Positions 3,250-38,898 of a stretch of 64,000 nucleotides of DNA are shown here, one piece after another; within the stretch, counting starts at the first letter, position 1, and each line of letters begins with the position of its first letter. A program made the position numbers and the translations under genes. The stretch comes from Arcicella rosea (lineage in GTDB: Bacteria > Bacteroidota > Bacteroidia > Cytophagales > Spirosomataceae): NCBI RefSeq assembly GCF_014204325.1, contig NZ_JACHKT010000012.1:1-64000 (forward strand), in the 5' to 3' direction. The notes under the pieces were generated by a model that saw only the letters and a list, made by a program, of their open reading frames with translations, made no database searches and was not told where the DNA came from.

Positions 3250-3393
3250 TCATTTATAGACTCCAAATTTCTGCTTTATCAGTCGTTCATGCAAAAAATA
3301 GACTAAAAGAATGATAGAGGTGGCAAAAGTAATCATCATGATTGTGCCGACTTCGATGATGATTTTAACTGTAGAGGCGTCTTGCTGAACCAT
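3250..3393 (-). CDS. 47-residue single-TM peptide of kinase operon
   Basis: Small ORF, ATG at 3391-3393, TGA at 3250-3252. The first 8 residues (MVQQDAST) are polar, followed by one long hydrophobic stretch (about 10-34) and a basic tail (HERLIKQKFGVYK). It overlaps the 3' end of the 7-TM gene in another frame by 58 bases and ends 9 bases before the kinase ATG, a spacing expected for a coupled operon gene. No family is recognised. It could be a modulator of the kinase, or the overlap may be fortuitous. Position, clean membrane topology and tight spacing support reality. Confidence 0.6.
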   Translation of the reverse strand: MVQQDASTVKIIIEVGTIMMITFATSIILLVYFLHERLIKQKFGVYK

Positions 3394-4016
3394 AATCCTA
3401 TTGCTAAAAAGATTCTAAAGATGAAAGATAAGATGAAATATATAACCCATAGCTCCTTAAAAAAAGGCGATTTATGAAAGAGTACTGTTTCTCCGTAAAG
3501 GAATAGAAATAAAGTACCTGAAAAATAAAGTAAGCAAGCTACACTAATCCAAAACATCGGAGTGACAGAGAGTTTCTGTACAGTTAGTGTTTGGAGAAGT
3601 TGGAAAAAGTAAATAAATACACAAATAATAATTATGATGCAGGCAATTGAATTAATTAAACTATTGAACTTTACAAAATTGGAAGTTTCAGTAAAATTGA
3701 AAATAGCAAAAAACGTAAAAACTGATATGGTAATTAAAGTAATTCGTTTAACTAGTTTATTTATAAATACTTCTCGATACATTAAGACCAATAGTAAGCA
3801 CTCTACTACCGAAAATATGTTTAGCATAAAATGATTAGGACTGTGTAAATATCTTGCCCAAAAAGTTGCTATTATTTCAGTTAGAGTAGATACTATAATA
3901 TATACAAACATTAGTTTTAATTCTAATGTGAAATTTTCCCTTCTGATAATAGCAATTATCAGAGGGAAAAAAACTCCTAAAGATGATACGTATGCGAGTA
4001 TATCTGGAAAGGTCAT
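3336..4016 (-). CDS. Seven-TM membrane protein of kinase operon
   Basis: 226-residue polytopic membrane protein with about seven hydrophobic segments separated by short charged loops (for example IIRREN and YREVFINKLVKR). The ATG at 4016 is preferred because it lies 9 bases after the stop of the upstream small gene; an upstream in-frame extension would overlap that gene and has no membrane-protein character. The C terminus is Ser/Lys-rich. No sequence family is recognised. It is the second gene of a leftward cluster ending in histidine kinase and response regulator, so it may be the sensor or signal-input partner of that kinase. Function unknown. Confidence 0.75.
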   Translation of the reverse strand: MTFPDILAYVSSLGVFFPLIIAIIRRENFTLELKLMFVYIIVSTLTEIIATFWARYLHSPNHFMLNIFSVVECLLLVLMYREVFINKLVKRITLITISVFTFFAIFNFTETSNFVKFNSLINSIACIIIIICVFIYFFQLLQTLTVQKLSVTPMFWISVACLLYFSGTLFLFLYGETVLFHKSPFFKELWVIYFILSFIFRIFLAIGLWFSKTPLQLKSSSKSAQS

Positions 4017-4024
4017 CCTATAGT

Positions 4025-4312
4025 TTAGTCTATGTGTACTGGACAGTAAGGTGGACAAGGTGGTGGTCCAATGATACATGAAGTAGAAATAACTTCACAG
4101 TCACCGTTAACTCCGCTAATAATTAATTGGTGAACCTCATCTTCGTCATAAGTATGTTCAATTTTGAAACCTACGATTTCTGGATTTTCTTCTAGCATTG
4201 CTACTAATAAAGATGCACTTACATAATGAGAATGTACTTGGTGTTTTTTCTTGTAATCTTCTAATCCTTTAGATGCTTTTTCTGATTCTCTTTTAATAAG
4301 TTTACCTGCCAT
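4025..4312 (-). CDS. Small protein with Cys/Pro-rich tail
   Basis: 95-residue protein of unknown family. The N-terminal 30 residues are highly charged and helical in character (KRESEKASKGLEDYKKKHQ). The middle (about 31-70) looks like a small alpha/beta fold. The C-terminal 25 residues hold four of the five cysteines in a Pro-rich context, ending CIIGPPPCPPYCPVHID. No signal peptide is present. It is the first gene of the 7-TM/peptide/kinase/regulator cluster. The tail could bind metal, be crosslinked, or be a modified-peptide core; no maturation enzyme is nearby, so function remains open. Confidence 0.7.
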   Translation of the reverse strand: MAGKLIKRESEKASKGLEDYKKKHQVHSHYVSASLLVAMLEENPEIVGFKIEHTYDEDEVHQLIISGVNGDCEVISTSCIIGPPPCPPYCPVHID

Positions 4313-4387
4313 GTTTGTTAAATAATTGGGGTTGGTTAATAATATTCAAAACTACTAAAATGTATATAATTACAAAGTATTCTAATG

Positions 4388-4434
4388 AAAATAGCGTAGA
4401 AATACACATAAAACAGGTATTTCTACGCTATTTC
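4388..4434 (-). terminator. Intrinsic terminator of ribE
   Basis: A 16-base-pair perfect stem (4390-4405 with 4417-4432, sequence AATAGCGTAGAAATAC and its complement) with an 11-base loop lies directly downstream of the ribE stop at 4436 and is followed on the minus strand by TTTTCATT. The stem begins within a few bases of the stop codon. Confidence 0.8.
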
Positions 4435-4435
4435 T

Positions 4436-5020
4436 TTATAGCGTAATCATCTTCTTGATGTATTTACCTACAATATCAAATTCTAGGTTTACGATGTCAC
4501 CGATTTTTAAAGTATGAAAAACAGTATGTTCGTAAGTGTAAGGAATAATGGCTACTCTGAAAGTATTTATGCCTGAATTAAATACAGTGAGACTTGTTCC
4601 GTTGATACAGATTGAGCCTTTTTCGACAGTAACGTTTTGTCCGTAGTTACTATATTCAAAATCATAGAGCCAAGAACCATCTTGTTCAATAATGTTGGTA
4701 ACTATTCCTGTTTGGTCAACGTGTCCTTGTACAATGTGTCCGTCGAAACGTCCATTTGCTGGCATACATCTTTCCAGATTTACTTTTGAACCTACCGTTA
4801 AAGCTCCTAAATTGGTTTTTTTAAGGGTTTCGTCGATGGCTGTTACCGAATATTCTTCTCCTTTAATATCAATTACGGTTAAACATACGCCATTGTGGGC
4901 AAGACTTTGGTCTATTTTTAATTCGTTGGTAAAAGGACAAGTAAGTGTAAATGTAATGTTTGTTCCTTCTTTGCTAAGATTGGTTACTTTGCCTAATGCT
5001 TCGATGATTCCTGTGAACAT
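4436..5020 (-). CDS. ribE: Riboflavin synthase alpha chain
   Basis: Converts two 6,7-dimethyl-8-ribityllumazine molecules to riboflavin in the cytosol. The 194-residue protein shows the usual start MFTGIIEALGKV and two tandem lumazine-binding repeats, recognisable by NGVCLTV in the first half and INGTSLTV in the second. The linker HIVQGHVDQTG joins them. Length matches the family (about 200). It stands alone: no other rib genes are adjacent, and the neighbour upstream (5118) is divergent. The name follows E. coli usage; in Bacillus the same enzyme also carries the name ribE. Confidence 0.96.
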   Translation of the reverse strand: MFTGIIEALGKVTNLSKEGTNITFTLTCPFTNELKIDQSLAHNGVCLTVIDIKGEEYSVTAIDETLKKTNLGALTVGSKVNLERCMPANGRFDGHIVQGHVDQTGIVTNIIEQDGSWLYDFEYSNYGQNVTVEKGSICINGTSLTVFNSGINTFRVAIIPYTYEHTVFHTLKIGDIVNLEFDIVGKYIKKMITL

Positions 5021-5063
5021 TTTTTTATCTATTATCTGTTATCGCTTTCGCAAGTTAATTTAC

Positions 5064-5071
5064 TAATTTTG
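5064..5071 (+). promoter_or_regulatory. Candidate -7 box of DUF1684 gene
   Basis: TAATTTTG matches the Bacteroidota -7 consensus TAnnTTTG and lies 46 bases before the ATG at 5118. No good -33 TTG is present, and AT-rich DNA yields such matches by chance. Confidence 0.35.
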
Positions 5072-5117
5072 CTTATCTATCAAGAACAGGCATGTTCCTC
5101 TTAAAATTCCTCAAAAA

Positions 5118-5735
5118 ATGTTCAAAAATAAATTCTTCCTTGTTTTTACCAGTGTTATTTTAGTTGCTATCATTATTTACTCTTTTGTTGATTCTCAAGA
5201 AAAACCTGCAACTGAGGCTCTTTCAGATAATTATGCGAAAACGGTTCTAGCTTTAAGACAAGCCAAAGATGAGGCTTTGAAAACCGAAAAAGATTCGCCC
5301 ATTGAGGATAAAAAAAACTTTAAAGGCTTACATTATTTTGCAATAAACCCTGTTTATAAAGTAGTGGCTACTTTGGATAAATTAACAAGCGGACAAAGTA
5401 TTAAAGTTGCGATGACGGGCGGAGAAACTGAGGAATATGAAGCTTTTGCGAACCTAACATTTGAAATTGATGGGAAAAAATGTGCTTTAAAAGTATTTAA
5501 AACACCTGAAGGAAACTTGTTTTTACCTTTCCGTGATTTAACAAGTAATAAAGAAACTTATGGTGCGGGGCGTTATCTTGATTTAAAAATGGAAGATATT
5601 AAAGACCAAAGCATTGAGATTGATTTTAATCTTTGCTATCAGCCATATTGTGCTTACAATCCTAGTTTTACTTGCCCAGTGCCACCAGCAGAGAACTTTT
5701 TGAATGTTGCTTTGAAGGTTGGGGAGAAAATGTAG
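5118..5735 (+). CDS. DUF1684 family protein
   Basis: 205-residue protein. One N-terminal hydrophobic segment (about 3-22) looks like an uncleaved anchor or signal peptide, so the rest is probably periplasmic or membrane-attached. The body is a DUF1684 domain, recognised by FRDLTSNKETYGAGRYL at about 138-154 and the C-terminal FNLCYQPYCAYNPSFTCPVP block followed by AENFLNVALKVGEKM. The conserved cysteines in that block are a family hallmark, but the biochemical role is not established. It is divergent from ribE and convergent with the acyl-CoA dehydrogenase. Confidence 0.88.
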   Translation: MFKNKFFLVFTSVILVAIIIYSFVDSQEKPATEALSDNYAKTVLALRQAKDEALKTEKDSPIEDKKNFKGLHYFAINPVYKVVATLDKLTSGQSIKVAMTGGETEEYEAFANLTFEIDGKKCALKVFKTPEGNLFLPFRDLTSNKETYGAGRYLDLKMEDIKDQSIEIDFNLCYQPYCAYNPSFTCPVPPAENFLNVALKVGEKM

Positions 5736-5809
5736 TATTGAAGGACATAAAATATCCCCACTTAAAAAGCAGGGATATGCGTTTGTTTTGATGAAAATGT
5801 AATTAAATA

Positions 5810-7627
5810 TTATTGAAAAACACCAAGCTTTTCCGAATCAACAGTTAGTAAAGTATTATCTGTTAATCGGGTTGCTAAAGCATAATTTTTGATTAATTCA
5901 TAATGATAGAAGAATTTCATGGTATGAATTTTCGATTCATAAAATGAGGTTTCACTTTCTTCAAGGCTTTGGGTAATTAATGCTTGTTTAGCTACAATTG
6001 CTTGTTTAAGCCATATCCATGCAACTGTGGTAATCCCGAAAAACTCCATATAAAGATTGGCATCTGCTAAAAAAGCCTCATTATCTCCTTTGGCAGCAAT
6101 ACTTAACAAGTGCATCGTTACTTTTTGCAAACGTCCTAGTTCCTTTTCAAGCTTTTCAGCATAAGGTTTTAGTTCATCAAAAGTATTTGCCAGCTCAATA
6201 CTCTTCATTATTTCATTGAAAAGTAACTGTGGTGCTTTGCCATTATTCAATGTCACTCCCCTACCTAATAAATTCAAAGAATGTATGCCCGTTGTACCTT
6301 CGTAGATAGACATAATTCTGACATCACGAGCCATTTGTTCTAATGGAAAGTCTTCTGTGTAGCCATACCCACCCAAAACCTGCAAGCCTTCATTCACTGC
6401 TTTGATACCCATTTCGGCTGGATAAGTTTTAGCAACGGTTGTCATCAAATCAAGCATTAATTGATAAGGTTTTGCCTCCTCAGAGGTTTTACCAAGTGCA
6501 TGAATCATGTCTTGCCAGTGATAACATTCTAGTAAAAGTGCCAAAGAGCCTTCAACAACGGCTTTTTGAAACAACAACATTCTTTTTACATCGGGATGGT
6601 TAATGATATACGTCTGTTCTTCTTCTAAATTTTTGTTGTTAAGTTTCCTTCCTTGCGGACGCTCCTTCGCATACTCCAATGAAGCATAATATGCGGCAGA
6701 AGCAATGTAAGTTCCGCCCATGCCAACGCCTAACCGTGCTTCATTCATCATTTGAAACATGTAGCTAAGTCCTTTATTGGCTTCCCCCACTAAATATCCA
6801 ATTGAATTATCTTTATCACCGAAGGTTAAGTGCATAGCGGGCGTAGCTTTCTGCCCCATTTTATGATAGATTCCTGTAGAAATCACATCGTTATCTACAT
6901 TGAATTCAGTCCCATTGGCATTTGCTCTGAATTTAGGAACAACAAATAAAGAAATTCCTTTAGTACCGAGTGGTGCACCTTCAATTCTTGCCAATACTAA
7001 GTGAATAATGTTATCGGCAATGTCATGATCGCCAGCAGAAATGAATACTTTCTGACCTTTAATCTTAAAAGTACCGTCACTTTGTGGAAAAGCAGTCGTG
7101 ATAACATCTGAAAGCGAGCTACCAGCTTGAGGTTCAGTTAAACACATTGAGCCAGTCCATTCGCCAGTTACCATTCTTTGGGCATATTTTTCTTTTAATT
7201 CATCCGAACCAAAAGAAAAAATCAAATTTGCAGAACCAGCCGTTAAACCAGTAAACATTACAAAAGCATTATTGGCTGAACCTCTAATCATTTCGCTTGC
7301 TGCGTTGACTACAGTTGGTAATTGTTGTCCGCCATTTTCATAATCAAAAGTTGCGGCAATCATTCCTGCATCGCCCATTGCTTTTACATAATCTTTTACG
7401 GCAGGATGTACTTTTACTTGACCATTAATTAACTGAGGCTGGTTTCTATCGGACGAGACGTAGGCATTTCGGAGGATTTTATCAGCAATTTCTTCGGCAG
7501 TATCCAAAACCATGTCGAACATATCAGGCGTATAATCCTGAAAGTATGAAAACTTAGTAAGTTCTGCCACTTGCAGCACTTCTTTCAACATAAAATCAAG
7601 ATTGCGACGAGAATATTGCTTATTCAT
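5810..7627 (-). CDS. Acyl-CoA dehydrogenase
   Basis: FAD-dependent alpha,beta-dehydrogenation of acyl-CoA, first step of beta-oxidation. 605 residues, longer than the classical 380-residue enzyme because of a C-terminal helical extension, as in the AcdA/FadE-like Bacteroidota form. The FAD/substrate region shows MCLTEPQAGSSLSD (161-174). The C-terminal catalytic domain has VLGGYGYTEDFPLEQMARD and the catalytic-base motif SIYEGTTGIHSL with E443. No thiolase or hydratase gene is adjacent. A palindromic site just upstream of the ATG may be its operator. Substrate chain length cannot be read from the sequence. Confidence 0.95.
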   Translation of the reverse strand: MNKQYSRRNLDFMLKEVLQVAELTKFSYFQDYTPDMFDMVLDTAEEIADKILRNAYVSSDRNQPQLINGQVKVHPAVKDYVKAMGDAGMIAATFDYENGGQQLPTVVNAASEMIRGSANNAFVMFTGLTAGSANLIFSFGSDELKEKYAQRMVTGEWTGSMCLTEPQAGSSLSDVITTAFPQSDGTFKIKGQKVFISAGDHDIADNIIHLVLARIEGAPLGTKGISLFVVPKFRANANGTEFNVDNDVISTGIYHKMGQKATPAMHLTFGDKDNSIGYLVGEANKGLSYMFQMMNEARLGVGMGGTYIASAAYYASLEYAKERPQGRKLNNKNLEEEQTYIINHPDVKRMLLFQKAVVEGSLALLLECYHWQDMIHALGKTSEEAKPYQLMLDLMTTVAKTYPAEMGIKAVNEGLQVLGGYGYTEDFPLEQMARDVRIMSIYEGTTGIHSLNLLGRGVTLNNGKAPQLLFNEIMKSIELANTFDELKPYAEKLEKELGRLQKVTMHLLSIAAKGDNEAFLADANLYMEFFGITTVAWIWLKQAIVAKQALITQSLEESETSFYESKIHTMKFFYHYELIKNYALATRLTDNTLLTVDSEKLGVFQ

Positions 7628-30398: not shown

Positions 30399-32948
30399 AT
30401 GGAATCAAGGAGAGAGTTTATCAAAAAAGCGTCTGTATTAGCCTCTGGGGCTGGTTTTCTGGGAATGTTGCCTGCTTCAATTCAAAAAGCAATGGCAATT
30501 AATCCTGCCGAAGGAAGTACTTTCTGGGATGCTGAACACATTGTCATTTTGATGCAAGAAAACCGCTCTTTCGACCACTGTTTTGGTACTTTACAAGGGG
30601 TACGTGGTTTCAATGACCCTCGTGCGATTACACTTCCAAGTAGAAATAAAGTGTGGTTGCAACAAAATGAAAAAGGACAAACCTTTGCTCCTTTTCGCCT
30701 AAATCTACGTGACTCAAATGCTACTTGGATGAGTTCTTTGCCACATTCTTGGGAAAACCAAGTGGATGCTTTGAACGGCGGAAAGAATGATAAATGGCTT
30801 CATGTAAAACAATCTGGACATAAAGAGTACAAAGATATGCCCTTGACTTTGGGCTATTATGACCGTGAGGATATTCCTTTCTACTACGCTTTGGCAGATG
30901 CTTTTACGCTTTGTGACCAAAATTTTTGTTCTTCTTTAACAGGAACTACGCCCAACCGTTTGTACTTATGGACGGGTACAATTCGTGAAAAGCAAGCTTT
31001 TGATTCAAAAGCCAATGTCAAAAACGAAGATGTAGATTATGGTAAATGGGCAAAATGGAAAACCTTTCCCGAACGTTTAGAAGAAAACGGTATTTCTTGG
31101 AAAATTTATCAAAATGAAATCAGTTTGCCTACTGGTTTGGAAGGAGAAGGCGATGCTTGGTTGGCGAATTTCACCGACAATCCGATTGAATGGTTTGAGC
31201 AATATCAAGTAAAATTCTCGCCAGAATATTATCGCTATATTCAAGAAGTTGTAAAATTTTTACCGAAAGAGATTGAGAAGCTTTCTGCTGAAATCCCAAC
31301 ACTTGAAGCAGGAAGTGAAGCTTTGAAAAAAGCAGAAAGAGCATTGGCACAAAAGAAAAACTATTTAAAAATCGCTCAGGAAGACATTGTAAATTACACG
31401 CCTGAAAATTTTGAAAAGCTTTCTACTTTCCAGAAAAATATTCATCAAAAAGCCTTTACCAACAACCGCAACGACCCACATTTCCATGAACTTACTTCAT
31501 TGGAATATTCTGATAACGGAACTGCCCGAAAATTAGAAGTACCCAAAGGTGACGTATTGCATCAATTCCGCCAAGATGTTGCGAATAATCAGTTGCCTGC
31601 GGTTACTTGGTTGGTTGCTCCCGAAAACTTTTCAGACCACCCCGGCGCACCGTGGTACGGAGCTTGGTACTTATCAGAAACGATGGATATTCTTACCCAA
31701 AATCCAGAAGTTTGGAAGAAAACCATTTTCATTTTGGCTTATGATGAAAACGACGGTTACTTCGACCACGTTCCTCCTTTCCTTCCGCCACATCATCAAA
31801 AAGCTGACACGGGAAAAGTTTCAGAAGGCATTGATGTTTCGGTAGAGCAAGTGAATTTGGCTCATGAAAAGAAAAGAGATTACTACAAAAATCCAGAAAA
31901 AGATACTCGTGACGGAGCAATTGGTTTGGGTTTTAGAGTACCACTTTTGATTGCTTCGCCGTGGAGTAGAGGCGGAAATGTTTGTTCAGAAATTTTTGAC
32001 CATACTTCTATTTTACAGTTTTTAGAGAAATTTCTCAGCCACAAAACGAAGAAGAATATCAAAGAAGACAACATTTCGGAGTGGAGAAGAACCGTTTGTG
32101 GCGATTTGACTTCGGTGTTTAAACCTTATAATGGCGAAAAAATCGCTCTTCCGACTTTTGTTGAAAAAGAACCATTTTTGGAAAGTGTCCATAAAGCAAA
32201 ATTCAAAAATGTACCTTCTAATTTCAAGGCTCTTTCTGCCGAAGAAATTAAGGAAGCCAATACTTTGGGCAATGCTTCTGCCTTGATGCCTAAGCAAGAA
32301 AAAGGTATTCGCAAAGCCTGTGCTTTGCCTTATGAATTGTACGCAGAAGCTGGTTTTAGTAGCGATAAAAAAACGTTTGAACTTACACTTTCGGCTGGAA
32401 ATAAGGCATTTGGCACAAAATCAGCAGGAGCTGCATTTGTGGTTTATACTCGTTACACCCAAAATGGTTTAGACGAAATTAGCACCCGAAACTATGCCGT
32501 AAAAGCAGGCGATACGTTGAAAGATACTTGGTCATTAGCAGCATTGGCAGATAAAAATACCCAAATAGAAGTGTACGGGCCGAACGGTTTCTTTAGGTCA
32601 TTCAAACTGAATAATGCACAGACAAATGTTGAAACAGCTTTGACTTACCAAAATAATCAGCTTGCTAAAAATTCTTTAACAGGCAATGGTATGTTGATTT
32701 TGAAAAACAATGAAGCACAAAACCTTCGTTTTATTATTGAAGATTTAAGCTATAAAACAGGCAAAAAAATCGTAGAAGTTGCTAAAGGGAAAAGCCTAAC
32801 GGTAGCTTTAGATTTCAGTAAAAGTCACGCTTGGTATGATTTTGCGGTTAAAATAGAAGGTAAAAATACTTTTGAACAACGCTATGCAGGACACATCGAA
32901 ACAGGCAAAGAAAGCTTCACCGACCCTGCCATGGGACAAGTGATATAA
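30399..32948 (+). CDS. Tat-exported phospholipase C
   Basis: 849-residue secreted phosphocholine-type phospholipase C. A twin-arginine signal peptide (SRREFIKKASVLASG) is followed by the phosphoesterase domain (about 45-520) with HIVILMQENRSFDHCFGTL, SSLTGTTPNRLYLWTG, DENDGYFDHVPP and SPWSRGGNVCSE, all matching the catalytic metal-site segments of the Pseudomonas PlcH/Francisella AcpA superfamily. Two C-terminal beta-sandwich domains (about 640-840; starting ACALPYELYAEAG) match PLC C-terminal repeats. It hydrolyses phospholipid headgroups outside the cytosol. A module of three palindromes begins 1 base after the stop. Phosphate regulation is plausible but no Pho box was identified. Confidence 0.94.
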   Translation: MESRREFIKKASVLASGAGFLGMLPASIQKAMAINPAEGSTFWDAEHIVILMQENRSFDHCFGTLQGVRGFNDPRAITLPSRNKVWLQQNEKGQTFAPFRLNLRDSNATWMSSLPHSWENQVDALNGGKNDKWLHVKQSGHKEYKDMPLTLGYYDREDIPFYYALADAFTLCDQNFCSSLTGTTPNRLYLWTGTIREKQAFDSKANVKNEDVDYGKWAKWKTFPERLEENGISWKIYQNEISLPTGLEGEGDAWLANFTDNPIEWFEQYQVKFSPEYYRYIQEVVKFLPKEIEKLSAEIPTLEAGSEALKKAERALAQKKNYLKIAQEDIVNYTPENFEKLSTFQKNIHQKAFTNNRNDPHFHELTSLEYSDNGTARKLEVPKGDVLHQFRQDVANNQLPAVTWLVAPENFSDHPGAPWYGAWYLSETMDILTQNPEVWKKTIFILAYDENDGYFDHVPPFLPPHHQKADTGKVSEGIDVSVEQVNLAHEKKRDYYKNPEKDTRDGAIGLGFRVPLLIASPWSRGGNVCSEIFDHTSILQFLEKFLSHKTKKNIKEDNISEWRRTVCGDLTSVFKPYNGEKIALPTFVEKEPFLESVHKAKFKNVPSNFKALSAEEIKEANTLGNASALMPKQEKGIRKACALPYELYAEAGFSSDKKTFELTLSAGNKAFGTKSAGAAFVVYTRYTQNGLDEISTRNYAVKAGDTLKDTWSLAALADKNTQIEVYGPNGFFRSFKLNNAQTNVETALTYQNNQLAKNSLTGNGMLILKNNEAQNLRFIIEDLSYKTGKKIVEVAKGKSLTVALDFSKSHAWYDFAVKIEGKNTFEQRYAGHIETGKESFTDPAMGQVI

Positions 32949-33064
32949 GTAGCACAGGTTTCCAACCTGTCCAAAGCCCATAAAAAAACGGTAACCCATG
33001 CGGTTACCGTTTGCTATTTAAAACAAAACCTATCGATTCGGCAACCGCAAGGGATTGCCGCTAC
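32949..33064. repeat. Modular palindromic repeat, three-hairpin copy
   Basis: The element is bounded by GTAGC (32949-32953) and GCTAC (33060-33064). It has three palindromic modules: ACAGGTT/AACCTGT, CGGTAACC/GGTTACCG, and GGCAACC/GGATTGCC. The last two modules are shared with 30156-30233. It begins right after the phospholipase stop codon. Size, ends and hairpins suggest a non-autonomous mobile repeat. Confidence 0.7.
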
Positions 33065-33539
33065 AATTCCAAATAAACCCTGTTACACTTTGCGGTTTTC
33101 TTCGGTTTTTAATCCTCAAACCTATCAAAAAGATAGGAAAAGCTATCTCCGAGATAGGACAACCTATCTTTTTCACGCAATTTCCCGCAAAAAAGACAGA
33201 TTATTCTATCTAATTCACGCAAAATACCGCAAAATAGATGGAACGACCATTCTTTTAGATAGCTTGTCCTGTCTTTTTGATAAGTTGGGGTGTGATTTTG
33301 ATGGACTTGCGTTTCATTGGAGACCTATTTCCTCTTCCTATTGGAAGTGTCTTCACTGCCCACGACAAAGCAAATGTGTAATCACTATCTTAAATCTGCT
33401 ATAATTAGAGAATAATCTATTATGAAACTATTTAGTAATCACTATTACAATTTTATCATATATAAGGTGATTTAGTATTTGTTAGATAATATTCTTATAT
33501 TCATAACTATAATCTTCCAGAATATCTTCTATCACAATA
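33065..33539. other. Non-coding region with twin repeat copy 1 and tandem upstream motifs
   Basis: After the modular repeat comes the first 215-base repeat copy (33090-33304), then about 235 AT-rich bases before the orphan gene. This last part contains the 11-base direct repeat GTAATCACTAT at 33378-33388 and 33435-33445, possible regulator sites for the orphan gene. No coding sequence is supported. Confidence 0.5.
33090..33304. repeat. 215-base direct repeat, left copy
   Basis: Starts TTGCGGTTTTCTTCGG and ends GTGATTTTGATGG. It is identical to 34895-35109 except for five substitutions, all transitions, and no gaps. It contains several nested palindromes: CCTATC/GATAGG (33121-33137), CTATCTC/GAGATAG (33143-33157), and GATAGG/CCTATC (33153-33168). 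There is no protein of bacterial character in it; a TTG-initiated frame is considered spurious. Confidence 0.9.
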
Positions 33540-34706
33540 ATGAACAGTAAGCAAGAAAAATTAGTGAATTTGTTTAGTCATACTCTAACTGGAGCACCAT
33601 CAGTATTTGCTCCTGACCTTTATGGATTTTCTAATAAACAAAAAACAGATGAGCCTGCTGATATAGTCTGGCATTATGAGAAATTCGTTCTTTTAATGTA
33701 CATGACTAGTACAGAAAAGGTCTTTCAAGATGAGTCTTTGATTGAAATAAAAAGACAAAAACAAATCAAGCATAACCTGAAGCAAGCAAAAAAATGGCTT
33801 AACCATTGGAGAGTGAATAAAATTCCTTTATGTGGAAAAAATGAGTTTCAGACATTCAATATTCCCTATACTAATGACTTAAAAGTTATGGTTATATCCA
33901 TATATGAAATAGGGACAAAGAATGGGTACATTGAAATTGATTTTACAATAAAAAATAATATTCCTTTATGTATTTCATTACCTGAATCAGCTATTCGTTT
34001 ATTATCAGAACTAGAAGCCACACCGTTGGATATATGTTGGATATTTACTGCTATAGTAAATATTGGAGTTCCATCTCCTTTCGATGCCCATGAAATAATC
34101 TTGAATCACTTTAGACCTAAAACGAAAGATTTCTACCCAGAGTTTCAAATAATAAATTACCAAGAGATGAAAAGCACTATTGAGACTATAAAAAAAATGA
34201 GAAGCAAAAGTGTAAGTCTAAAACACTTTGAAAAACTTGATCTTACAATCCTTATTGTATTAAATGACCTTCTTCATCAAGAGTTCCTGATGATTGCTGA
34301 AATAACTGATAAACTCATAGTAGAACATGGGAAAAAATTTGACTCTTTTAAGACTGTAATTATTCCACTTAATCATTATTTGATATCAGTTACAATTTGC
34401 AGTCTTGAAACAGTTAAAACTAATCAAGAAAAGCTAAAATTAAGTTTAGAAAAAAATAAACAATTATCAACAGAACAAGATAAGGATGCTATTCATTTTT
34501 TTTTCTGTGGGCTACAACCTGGTTCATACGACATTATTGGAGCATTTACAAAAACACGTAATACACACATAAACAAACTTCTTAAGAATTGTGTTGCTAG
34601 CCAACCTAATTATGAAGCTTTGAGTAATAAATTTAGCCAAGAGAGAAGATTATTAAAACTATTTGAGAAACAATTCTTAATTAATCCTGTCACAAACAAT
34701 AGCTAA
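33540..34706 (+). CDS. Orphan 388-residue protein between twin repeats
   Basis: Protein of unknown family. N-terminal third: EPADIVWHYEKFVLLMYM followed by a basic helix IKRQKQIKHNLKQAKKWL (about 69-86). The D41 element, the strand and the HNLxQA helix resemble the layout of NERD/PD-(D/E)XK-like nucleases, but the usual ExK pair is not evident, so this is weak. The middle (about 100-220) is mixed alpha/beta (NNIPLCISLPESAIRLLSEL). The C-terminal third has a helical region (TNQEKLKLSLEKNKQLSTEQ) and FFFCGLQPGSYDIIGAFTK. No signal peptide or membrane segment. The gene is more AT-rich and richer in Asn/Lys/Ile codons than its neighbours and is enclosed by 215-base repeats, which suggests acquisition. 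Function unknown. Confidence 0.7.
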   Translation: MNSKQEKLVNLFSHTLTGAPSVFAPDLYGFSNKQKTDEPADIVWHYEKFVLLMYMTSTEKVFQDESLIEIKRQKQIKHNLKQAKKWLNHWRVNKIPLCGKNEFQTFNIPYTNDLKVMVISIYEIGTKNGYIEIDFTIKNNIPLCISLPESAIRLLSELEATPLDICWIFTAIVNIGVPSPFDAHEIILNHFRPKTKDFYPEFQIINYQEMKSTIETIKKMRSKSVSLKHFEKLDLTILIVLNDLLHQEFLMIAEITDKLIVEHGKKFDSFKTVIIPLNHYLISVTICSLETVKTNQEKLKLSLEKNKQLSTEQDKDAIHFFFCGLQPGSYDIIGAFTKTRNTHINKLLKNCVASQPNYEALSNKFSQERRLLKLFEKQFLINPVTNNS

Positions 34707-35225
34707 CATTAATTGGCACTGCTAGTTATTTCATTTAGGTATTAATAAACAGTTACAATTCAAATTCACCTTTTGTCGTTAGCAGTGGTAAAAATACCTA
34801 CTGCAAAGATTTTAAAAAATTCAAACCAAAGTTTTCAAATCTAAACTAGGACTGCCAAGGATTATCACTAGCAGTTTTAATAACATAATTATGCTTGCGG
34901 TTTTCTTCGGTTTTTAATCCTCAAACCTATCAAAAAGATAGGAAAAGCTATCTCCGAGATAGGATAACCTATCTTTTTCACGCAATTTCCCGCAAAAAAG
35001 ACAGATTATTCTATCTAATTCACGCAAAATACCGCAAAATAGATGGAACGACCATTCTTTTAGATAGCTTGTCCTGTCTTTTTGATGGATTGGGGCGTGA
35101 TTTTGATGGGATTACCGACTGAAGAAATAAATCCCCTTCCAACAATTCATAAAAAAAGTAAGCGAAATGCTGAAAAGACATTCTTGCCGATTAATTTTAA
35201 GGTATAATCCTTGTTTCCTATCGTC
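34707..35225. other. Non-coding region with twin repeat copy 2
   Basis: Downstream of the orphan gene is a perfect nine-base inverted pair ACTGCTAGT (34718-34726) and ACTAGCAGT (34867-34875), plus a nearer 8-base pairing (CACTGCTA with TAGCAGTG at about 34776) that may terminate the gene. Then the second 215-base repeat copy (34895-35109) and about 115 AT-rich bases before the membrane protein. No gene is supported here. Confidence 0.5.
34895..35109. repeat. 215-base direct repeat, right copy
   Basis: Same orientation and length as 33090-33304. Differences are one C/T in the GATAGG hairpin region and four clustered near the right end (A/G, A/G, G/A, T/C). Flanking sequences of the two copies are unrelated from the first base outside, so the boundaries are sharp. 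Confidence 0.9.
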
Positions 35226-36677
35226 ATGAAAATTATCAAAATCCTAAAAATTAGTTCGCTGGTCTATTTACTGATTCCGACTTATCTGTTTTTGCTTACT
35301 TGGGTAAGGGCTGAAATTGGAATAAGTGCCTGCTTGATTATTAGTATTTTTGTTTTCAACTATCTAAAAAATAGCCAGACTGACAAAGTGCGTCGCTTAA
35401 AAACTCCTATTAATTGGCTTACGGTTACGCTGGTTTTTGTCTTGGCTTTAGTGCTAAATCTACTAGTTGGTATCGGTGAATTCCGAGAACAAACCGTTGA
35501 TTTTATGGCGAATAACCTAAAGTATCGTGACCTTGTTCAAAATAAATGGCCACTGTACTATCCTGATTTCAAGGTATATATGTGCTATTATTTAGGCTAT
35601 TATCTTCCCACAGCAGGACTCGGAAAAATCGTTGGCATTGAGTATTGTCGCTATATTTCTTTGGTTTGGAGTACAACAGGTGCATTCTTGGTTTTCCTTT
35701 GGGCTATTACTTTTCTTGATAAATATCGTCTATCTGTCATTGGCGTAATCATTTTATTTTCAAATGCTTGGCTAGTGTACAAAGTAATACTTTGGCTAGA
35801 TTTCCAAACTTATATTTATCCACCTTATCATGTAAAATTAAATAATTTTTGGTTGATGCGTCCACCCTTTTGGGAAGGCTTTGCCCTTGCTCCTCAGCAC
35901 GTTTTTCCCGCCTGTTTTGGTGCTTGCTTTATGTTGGAAGCGAACTTTCTGAAGAAAATAAATTTAGATGAAATGTTATTGATGTTATTAGCAACGATGT
36001 ATTGGAGTCCTTTGGCAAGTATCGGAATTTTTCCTTTTGTACTCTATTATTATCTCAATAATTGGTCGAGTTTATTTACCCTGAAAAGTATTATTGAAAA
36101 AATATTTTTGGTTCTTGGCTTTACTCCGTTGATTATTTATTTCCTAAGTACACAAGGCGTCAACAGCGATAATACGCAGTTTATGTGGCAAGCTGGCGTA
36201 GAAAAATGGTATTGGACTTATCTGTTTTATATTGTTTTCAACTTCTTGATTTGGTACTTTTTCTTAAAACAATTCCAACATCCCTTTACAAAAATGGTGA
36301 AGGTTGCTTTACTTTTTTTGACGATTGTACCTTTATATCAAATCGGGATTGCTAATGATTTGAATATTAGAGCGTCCGTTCCTTCCATGTTTATTCTGAC
36401 GGTTGCCATTGCTTATGTTTTTGTGCAAGCTCAAAAAAGAAAGCTTTATTATTGGCTTGGATTAGCCTTTTTCTTGATAAATACGCTACCGACTTTACAT
36501 CAAGTTTATAAGAGTATTTTACCTTCCAAACCACAAACAACCATCATGAAAGCCGACTATAAGCAATTTCATAATATGCTTTCTTTCCAACAAGTAATGT
36601 ATGGCGACAGCACAGCGGTGTTGGAATACTCTTTAAAAAATGATTCTTTCTTTGAGAAACATTTGTTGAAGAAATAA
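35226..36677 (+). CDS. Polytopic membrane protein, GT-C-like
   Basis: 483-residue inner-membrane protein with about eleven hydrophobic segments. The ATG at 35226 is chosen over an upstream TTG at 35211. After the second helix there is a large outer loop with FREQTVDFMANNLKYRDL and WPLYYPDFKVYMCYYLGYYL, a layout seen in GT-C fold glycosyltransferase-type proteins where acidic residues of this loop are catalytic; this is an inference and D/E residues here (F-D-F-M, P-D-F) are only suggestive. The C-terminal region has NDLNIRASVPSMFILTVA. No family recognised with confidence. It is convergent with the propeller protein gene. Confidence 0.75.
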   Translation: MKIIKILKISSLVYLLIPTYLFLLTWVRAEIGISACLIISIFVFNYLKNSQTDKVRRLKTPINWLTVTLVFVLALVLNLLVGIGEFREQTVDFMANNLKYRDLVQNKWPLYYPDFKVYMCYYLGYYLPTAGLGKIVGIEYCRYISLVWSTTGAFLVFLWAITFLDKYRLSVIGVIILFSNAWLVYKVILWLDFQTYIYPPYHVKLNNFWLMRPPFWEGFALAPQHVFPACFGACFMLEANFLKKINLDEMLLMLLATMYWSPLASIGIFPFVLYYYLNNWSSLFTLKSIIEKIFLVLGFTPLIIYFLSTQGVNSDNTQFMWQAGVEKWYWTYLFYIVFNFLIWYFFLKQFQHPFTKMVKVALLFLTIVPLYQIGIANDLNIRASVPSMFILTVAIAYVFVQAQKRKLYYWLGLAFFLINTLPTLHQVYKSILPSKPQTTIMKADYKQFHNMLSFQQVMYGDSTAVLEYSLKNDSFFEKHLLKK

Positions 36678-38680: not shown

Positions 38681-38834
38681 AAGAGAAATAAATTTAAAAG
38701 AAGAGCAATTTTAAGATTTGGGCTTTCAGATAATTGCTTTCGTGATATTGATTTTGATGGTGGCAAATGTAGAAATAGCCAGTAGAAACAAAAAAATAAA
38801 GGAGTCCAGACTTATAAATCTGCACTTATTCATT

Positions 38835-38898
38835 GAGTGAATGAGTGAATGAGTGAATGAGTGAATGAGTGAATGAGTGAATGAGTGAATGAGTGAAT
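38835..38898. repeat. Octamer microsatellite (8 x GAGTGAAT)
   Basis: Eight exact tandem copies of GAGTGAAT, 64 bases, 7 bases after the AraC stop at 38906 on the minus strand and 155 bases before the propeller gene ATG. Not in any coding frame. Such perfect arrays are prone to slippage and could change promoter spacing for the propeller gene. Confidence 0.95.

Follow-up and report, generated by a model that had tools for sequence, protein, structure and literature searches.

Why does a gene of no recognised family lie between two nearly identical structured repeats, and did the repeats bring it there? In the 64-kb stretch of DNA analysed here (the window), two direct repeats of 215 nt, at 33090-33304 and 34895-35109 on the forward strand, align without gaps at a spacing of 1805 nt and with 98% identity, and the five sites at which they differ (33160, 33282, 33283, 33284 and 33291) are all transitions, just as the initial annotation had read from the sequence. 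It called their boundaries sharp, and the 12 bases adjoining the compared ends share no 5-mer. At a minimum length of 40 nt and a seed of 14, no other direct repeat in the window exceeds 74 nt in length or 80% in identity. Both copies start with the head TTGCGGTTTTCTTCGGTTTT and continue into a palindromic tail ending in GATTTTGATGG. The nested palindromes proposed for them were recovered in the left copy, where 23-nt arms at 33127-33149 and 33151-33173 form a palindrome around CTATCTCCGAGATAG (33127-33173; equivalent in the right copy, 34932-34978) and 24-nt arms at 33190-33213 and 33255-33278 form a second inverted repeat of 79% identity (33190-33278; right-copy equivalent, 34995-35083). With DNA parameters the left copy folds better than its shuffled versions (z -3.5, one of 200 shuffles being as good), and Rfam gave no match in the window at the gathering score. 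Other repeats were also seen in the window: by eye, a separate palindromic repeat of the CGGTAACC..GGTTACCG type in the gap that divides the phospholipase gene from the left element (32975-33075), a similar motif to which adjoins an element on contig C4, and a perfect 8-bp tandem repeat of TGAGTGAA with 8.1 copies (38834-38898).

The enclosed segment (33305-34894, 1590 bases) has a GC content of 29.5%; of 240 equally long control pieces, 6 were as AT-rich. It carries the orphan gene on the forward strand (33540-34706, 388 residues), whose AT-richness, pointed out at the outset, was measured as 29.8% GC against 34.4% for the window. The codon usage of its own frame is normal for this genome (score -3.84, with 153 control ORFs at -4.08 to -3.70), so the ORF is probably a real gene; the other five frames score worse, at -4.29 or lower. 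The 11-base motif GTAATCACTAT does occur twice upstream of it on the forward strand (33378-33388 and 33435-33445), nowhere else on either strand of the window and not at all in 400 kb of control sequence, and its first copy may serve as an operator. TAnnTTTG, a Bacteroidetes promoter pattern, is absent upstream of the gene.

The initial view that the orphan belongs to no known family was upheld: PADLOC, NCBIfam, PHROGs and PDB gave no match, and two Pfam matches lay far below the cut-off. Among 38 relatives the search retrieved only the protein itself, and neither 394 genomes of the phylum nor plasmids or phages yielded a homologue; these genome sets, like the others used for the gene, overlap. 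GTDB contigs and viral contigs were negative by exact peptide patterns, which are insensitive to distant relatives. The sole match among 221 other genomes of the family, at 21 bits, fell in a frame that we read as TonB-receptor-like and was discarded as spurious. The predicted structure, with a mean pLDDT of 34.5, was too low in confidence for a usable fold. On the left, outside the repeats, lies the gene of a phospholipase C-type phosphoesterase (30399-32948, forward; PF04185, PF05506) with no match in the seven congeners searched, and on the right that of a 488-residue protein without a Pfam match (35211-36677, forward), matched in six of the seven congeners at 41-47% identity; the flanking genes are not syntenic in congeners. 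No transposase or integrase was found among the four window proteins scanned with Pfam, in keeping with the first reading of the locus, and in a PADLOC search of 43 other window proteins only mad2 (two) and Csa3 (one) were matched.

A BLAST comparison of the left copy with its own, Cytophagales-related genome (5.3 Mb, 77 contigs) gave at least 67 matches; the inventory that follows may be incomplete because 40 of 55 candidate regions were scored. The family comprises 17 elements, here called type A, and six related type B arrays, besides two minor sites on contig C9 and on contig C2 near 161 kb; a search for the head motif recovered more distant copies. Type A elements have a precise, fixed head, TTGCGGTTTTCTTCG or a near variant, followed by a palindromic tail of variable length, and the window copies qualify as such by this head and their CTATC/GATAG tail; four type A elements carry GTATC palindromes in place of CTATC. 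Type B arrays differ from them in the leader and share the palindromes; four lie on contig C22 and one each on C5 and C45. By our own ORF calls all 23 main elements are intergenic, the short ORFs overlapping nine of them being treated as mechanical; most are solo, and their orientation to the neighbouring genes is mixed. The family is concentrated in this genome, with eight heads at no more than one mismatch versus one among 58 other genomes (among the matches listed), and with 35 exact occurrences of CTATCTCNGAGATAG, none in seven congeners and one each in two of 51 more distant relatives. A reversed control pattern was present in one genome only, and of the two distant occurrences that in genome G008 belongs to the family and that in G442 resembles, by eye, a lone terminator hairpin. 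Two solo type A elements (L047:3889-4833 and L045:2657-3523) have as next neighbour a PDDEXK_2 nuclease gene (PF12784), presumably Rpn-type, and a third, apparently broken relative was seen in L179, near a C5 methyltransferase gene.

The initial annotation had set against a cargo islet a repeat limited to these two places in all related genomes and constantly in the company of the same gene, or else a gene of a well-known family with a fixed location; a check of copy number and of solo copies showed instead a dispersed repeat, mostly solo, whose other close direct pairs hold other cargo. Such a distribution would also suit passive palindromic repeats akin to BIMEs or MITEs, free to insert or expand where they do no harm. 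The orphan would then merely lie between two of them, one copy having arisen from the other by a local hop, and defence genes would be enclosed because both they and the repeats favour variable regions. The intergenic position of all 23 elements, their mostly solo state and the combination of precise heads with variable tails speak in favour of this explanation. What the paired elements enclose, on the other hand, does not.

The genome contains four pairs of elements that lie less than 6 kb apart in direct orientation, and three of them enclose recognised defence systems; the fourth is that of the window, whose copies are each other's closest relatives within the genome. The same is true of the second type A pair, C30a and C30b (94% identity over 199 nt), which encloses a Dazbog-type locus made up of a 153-residue gene, DzbB (E 1e-48), DzbA (E 1e-105) and a C5 methyltransferase. 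The other two pairs consist of elements on C22. That at 36.9 and 42.1 kb holds a type IIG/ISP restriction-modification enzyme (PADLOC, E 0; PF18135, E 1e-80), a 207-residue protein without a match and a Y1 transposase. That at 64.8 and 69.5 kb holds a 912-residue protein matching Cas13b (PADLOC, E 3e-19, residues 30-234), a CRISPR array with 36-base repeats (by eye) at a 66-base spacing, and a 196-residue protein without a Pfam or PADLOC match. The Cas13b match and the array, between two type B arrays, form a type VI-B-like locus (L051:2709-3467 and 4184-6922). In neither C22 pair are the two members each other's closest relatives; they are 77% and 73% identical with their leaders in a multiple alignment (local matches, 74% over 237 nt and 84% over 210 nt). 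The segments enclosed by the two type A pairs are AT-rich, with 29.5% GC in the window and 30.1% on C30 compared with a minimum of 30.4% in 80 control windows of 5 kb; the cargo of the C22 pairs is not.

As a control, twenty 20-kb stretches were chosen regardless of content; together they cover 400 kb and encode 207 proteins of 200 residues or more. At E 1e-15, a limit that all the named enclosed systems meet, PADLOC matched one AbiEi, one C5 methyltransferase (L179), one HNH protein and one weak type II nickase there; matches to mad3 (five proteins), RecD types and DndA/SspA were regarded as generic, and a second control table covered 25 of 60 families among the matches listed. By our own reading, at least two to three defence loci fall in the 80 five-kb windows, that is, in at least 2.5-4% of them, as opposed to three of the four close direct pairs. 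At 4% each, three or more defence-bearing intervals among four would arise with a chance of about 2e-4, and of about 0.01 if every listed control match is counted (about 12 of 207 proteins, 15% of windows); these odds were computed post hoc, from a null that takes no account of the preference of defence genes for variable regions. When 64 proteins from loci with solo elements or with the inverted C2 pair were compared at E 1e-10, one helicase being excluded, the only models matched were mad2, caspase and PDC-M43B, each by a single protein. Bracketing is not universal among defence loci: that of the L179 type II methyltransferase has no long direct repeats within the 9 kb examined. Neighbouring elements in inverted orientation enclose ordinary genes: those between C2a and C2b, 11 kb apart, are of this kind apart from a UvrD-type helicase matching GajB models, and those between the middle pair of C22, 22 kb apart, were judged by eye from ORFs only.

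Because the three other close direct pairs enclose anti-phage genes, the orphan is probably an exchangeable defence gene as well; having no defence-like homologue of its own, it is a candidate named by the cargo of the neighbouring pairs. The explanation that we prefer, at a little under an even chance, is that the orphan is acquired cargo that entered between the repeats by homologous recombination. The gene and one copy of the element would have come in as foreign DNA that recombined with an element already resident, or else as a complete repeat-gene-repeat segment. Either event would leave two nearly identical direct copies, and a further recombination between these could remove the cargo, with a solo element left behind. 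The family would in this way act as portable homology through which accessory genes, anti-phage genes for the most part, could be swapped with no need for a dedicated recombinase, and the orphan protein may itself be an anti-phage factor. The islet proposed in the initial annotation gains a dispersed family, solo copies and other cargo; its excision or exchange through the repeats is a step that we infer, neither an empty site nor a junction read nor a recombinase having come to light. With four close direct pairs as its basis and a defence link that was noticed afterwards, we would put this explanation almost, though not quite, on a level with all the others together. A bolder version, in which the 21-bp palindromic elements described below are chromosome-wide docking sites for the recombinase-free exchange of anti-phage systems, the 388-residue protein is a new defence protein and the solo copies are vacated sites, is possible but doubtful.

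The core of the element is conserved in two other genomes, and thus in three in total. G008 has the same element in the same gap between a SusD gene and a CRTAC1-type gene as the window's genome, the only place matched there, and in G633 it lies on the upstream side of that CRTAC1-type gene (genes named by eye in both cases; G000, the genome of the window, L044:3609-4162; G008, L109 near 5900; G633, L111:1-480). The element and some 4 kb around it are about 90% identical at the nucleotide level in each of them, so that this copy is either old or has moved together with its neighbours. G633 also holds related arrays with a 63-bp period. Two of its array pairs are direct: one (95% over 182 nt; L160:127-310 and 3367-3610, on a 9.9-kb contig) encloses two caspase-domain genes, and the other (90% over 175 nt; L164:4665-4840 and 6981-7155) a single one, two of these three genes having an FGE-sulfatase domain. 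A third, mainly inverted pair (79% over 131 nt, about 7 kb) encloses polysaccharide-export and other genes (by eye), and two further arrays are solo, beside ordinary genes. In L164 (6981-7375) the 63-bp array runs into a short ORF adjoining an AbiEi gene; this ORF resembles, by eye, the start of a nucleotidyltransferase and has no Pfam match. Near-identical direct pairs around accessory genes therefore recur in G633, where the caspase-domain genes may or may not act in defence.

The orientation of the G633 pairs led us to raise slightly our estimates for acquired cargo and for docking sites and to lower by a similar amount that for passive repeats. The last explanation does account for the element shared with two other genomes in some 4 kb of surroundings at about 90% identity, and for the several G633 arrays that adjoin ordinary genes. 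It does not lead one to expect defence systems in three of four close direct pairs but ordinary genes, mostly judged by eye, in the three neighbouring pairs of inverted orientation, which span 11 and 22 kb in this genome and about 7 kb in G633, and the window copies have neither the terminal inverted repeat nor the target duplication of inserted elements, nor does a Y1 gene lie between type A heads in the stretches around the six Y1 matches of the genome. We consider it a questionable account of the locus, though one to be reckoned with.

The elements have a regular architecture that bears on a third possibility, namely that they act as boundaries, whether regulatory or topological (transcription attenuators, insulators or phased binding sites), which keep costly genes, defence systems among them, apart from their neighbours. 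Each of the six type B arrays can be read as consecutive 21-mers in unbroken register from its first palindrome to its degenerate end, and across their first 200 nt nine core type A elements hold the register as well. The spacings of neighbouring hairpin centres are multiples of 10.5 in 49 of 68 cases; when these elements were shuffled 30 times, 11 of 428 were. Twenty-one bp correspond to two turns of B-DNA, and also to seven codons; an open frame runs through several elements and not through others. A coding repeat found no support, as the changes per codon position, 45, 31 and 42 (p 0.25; nine core elements, one frame, 200 nt), show no excess at the third. The 21-bp lattice is more likely a feature of the DNA, for instance one that places bound proteins on the same face, than a coding one. 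The register with its palindromes, the core conserved across three genomes and the strong folding would all fit boundary elements; most copies, however, do not flank recognised defence genes, their orientation to genes is mixed, and no compensatory change was found within the core-type elements, which makes this explanation unlikely. The same mixed orientation and the lack of a compensatory double change in 11 core-type elements leave the paired structured RNAs of the initial annotation without direct support, although covariation neither demonstrates nor excludes an RNA structure here because the stems hardly vary. Several unrelated sequences in the genome also form tandem arrays with periods of 21 or 42 bp (L045:10269-10616, L053:338-567, L167:8431-8724, L173:331-418, L176:870-1140, L181:1336-1754 and L184:11080-11230), so that the 21-bp module may extend beyond the repeat family; other periods occur too, and some of these arrays may be coding. 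The register is a separate, testable puzzle. As for a meaningless chance duplication next to a fast-evolving, lineage-specific gene, it would agree with the failure of every search to find an orphan homologue and with the single such pair in the window, but the second type A pair of the same design around Dazbog makes it highly improbable.

If the orphan is acquired cargo, then the bracketing of Dazbog, a type IIG enzyme and Cas13b by related repeats within a single genome would represent a recombinase-free route of exchange, and new defence genes could be found by reading the content of paired elements, the orphan being the first candidate. It remains to place the elements among known repeat and mobile systems. 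Titles and the openings of abstracts on repeats near defence genes, Bacteroidetes RAYTs and 21-bp palindromic arrays contained no matching report, which is a statement about those lines and makes no claim of absence from print. Integron gene cassettes consist of a gene followed by a structured repeat, in direct orientation, and carry exchangeable accessory genes. The present segments resemble them in the order of gene and structured repeat and in the direct orientation; unlike cassettes, their solo copies are dispersed on many contigs and do not form one array. The boxes of attC are GTTRRRY and RYYYAAC, and neither pattern occurs in the left copy (215 bp, given strand).

REP sequences and BIMEs with their RAYTs share with our elements the enrichment in a species, the intergenic position, the palindromes, the many copies and the closely spaced units (PMC3733652); our elements differ in being roughly 200-400 bp long on a 21-bp lattice. 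A REP with a GTAG or CGTC tag at one end of a 20-40 bp palindrome was rejected, as neither tetranucleotide occurs in the window copies and occurrences in some other elements are scattered. Around several of the six Y1 transposase matches other palindromes were seen by eye. Stretches of 3-14 kb around the six contain no Y1 gene flanked by type A heads, but a Y1 gene and one type B array are about 340 bp apart. Of note, Y1 genes on C22 and C34 lie near other palindromes, of the GCCCTTTCAGGGC and GAGCGTCTCGCTC types (L050:6154-6269 and L045:10600-10660; by eye), in a REP-RAYT-like arrangement.

How defence genes move without recognised mobility genes is an open question raised for hotspots of E. 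coli, where defence islands without such genes occupy variable sites and their route of movement is called unclear (PMC10121019). Unlike the islands described there, each of the four segments considered here is bounded by members of related repeat families. In TIME-COMPs, a composite structure has a miniature Tn3-derived element at either end (PMC13367494). A terminal inverted repeat of the MITE or TIME type was rejected for our elements, the head matching the reverse-complemented tail at 2 of 20 positions, and no 5-mer of a target site duplication is shared within 12 bases of the ends in the three flank pairs of the window. TIME-COMPs thus differ from the window elements, which have neither of these marks and could be assigned to no transposase family, and our elements are spread over many contigs of one genome and enclose defence rather than drug-resistance genes (PMC13367494). 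In both, two non-coding elements of about 200 bp, direct or inverted, bound accessory genes (PMC13367494), and TIME-COMPs would appear to be the nearest functional likeness to the pairs described here.
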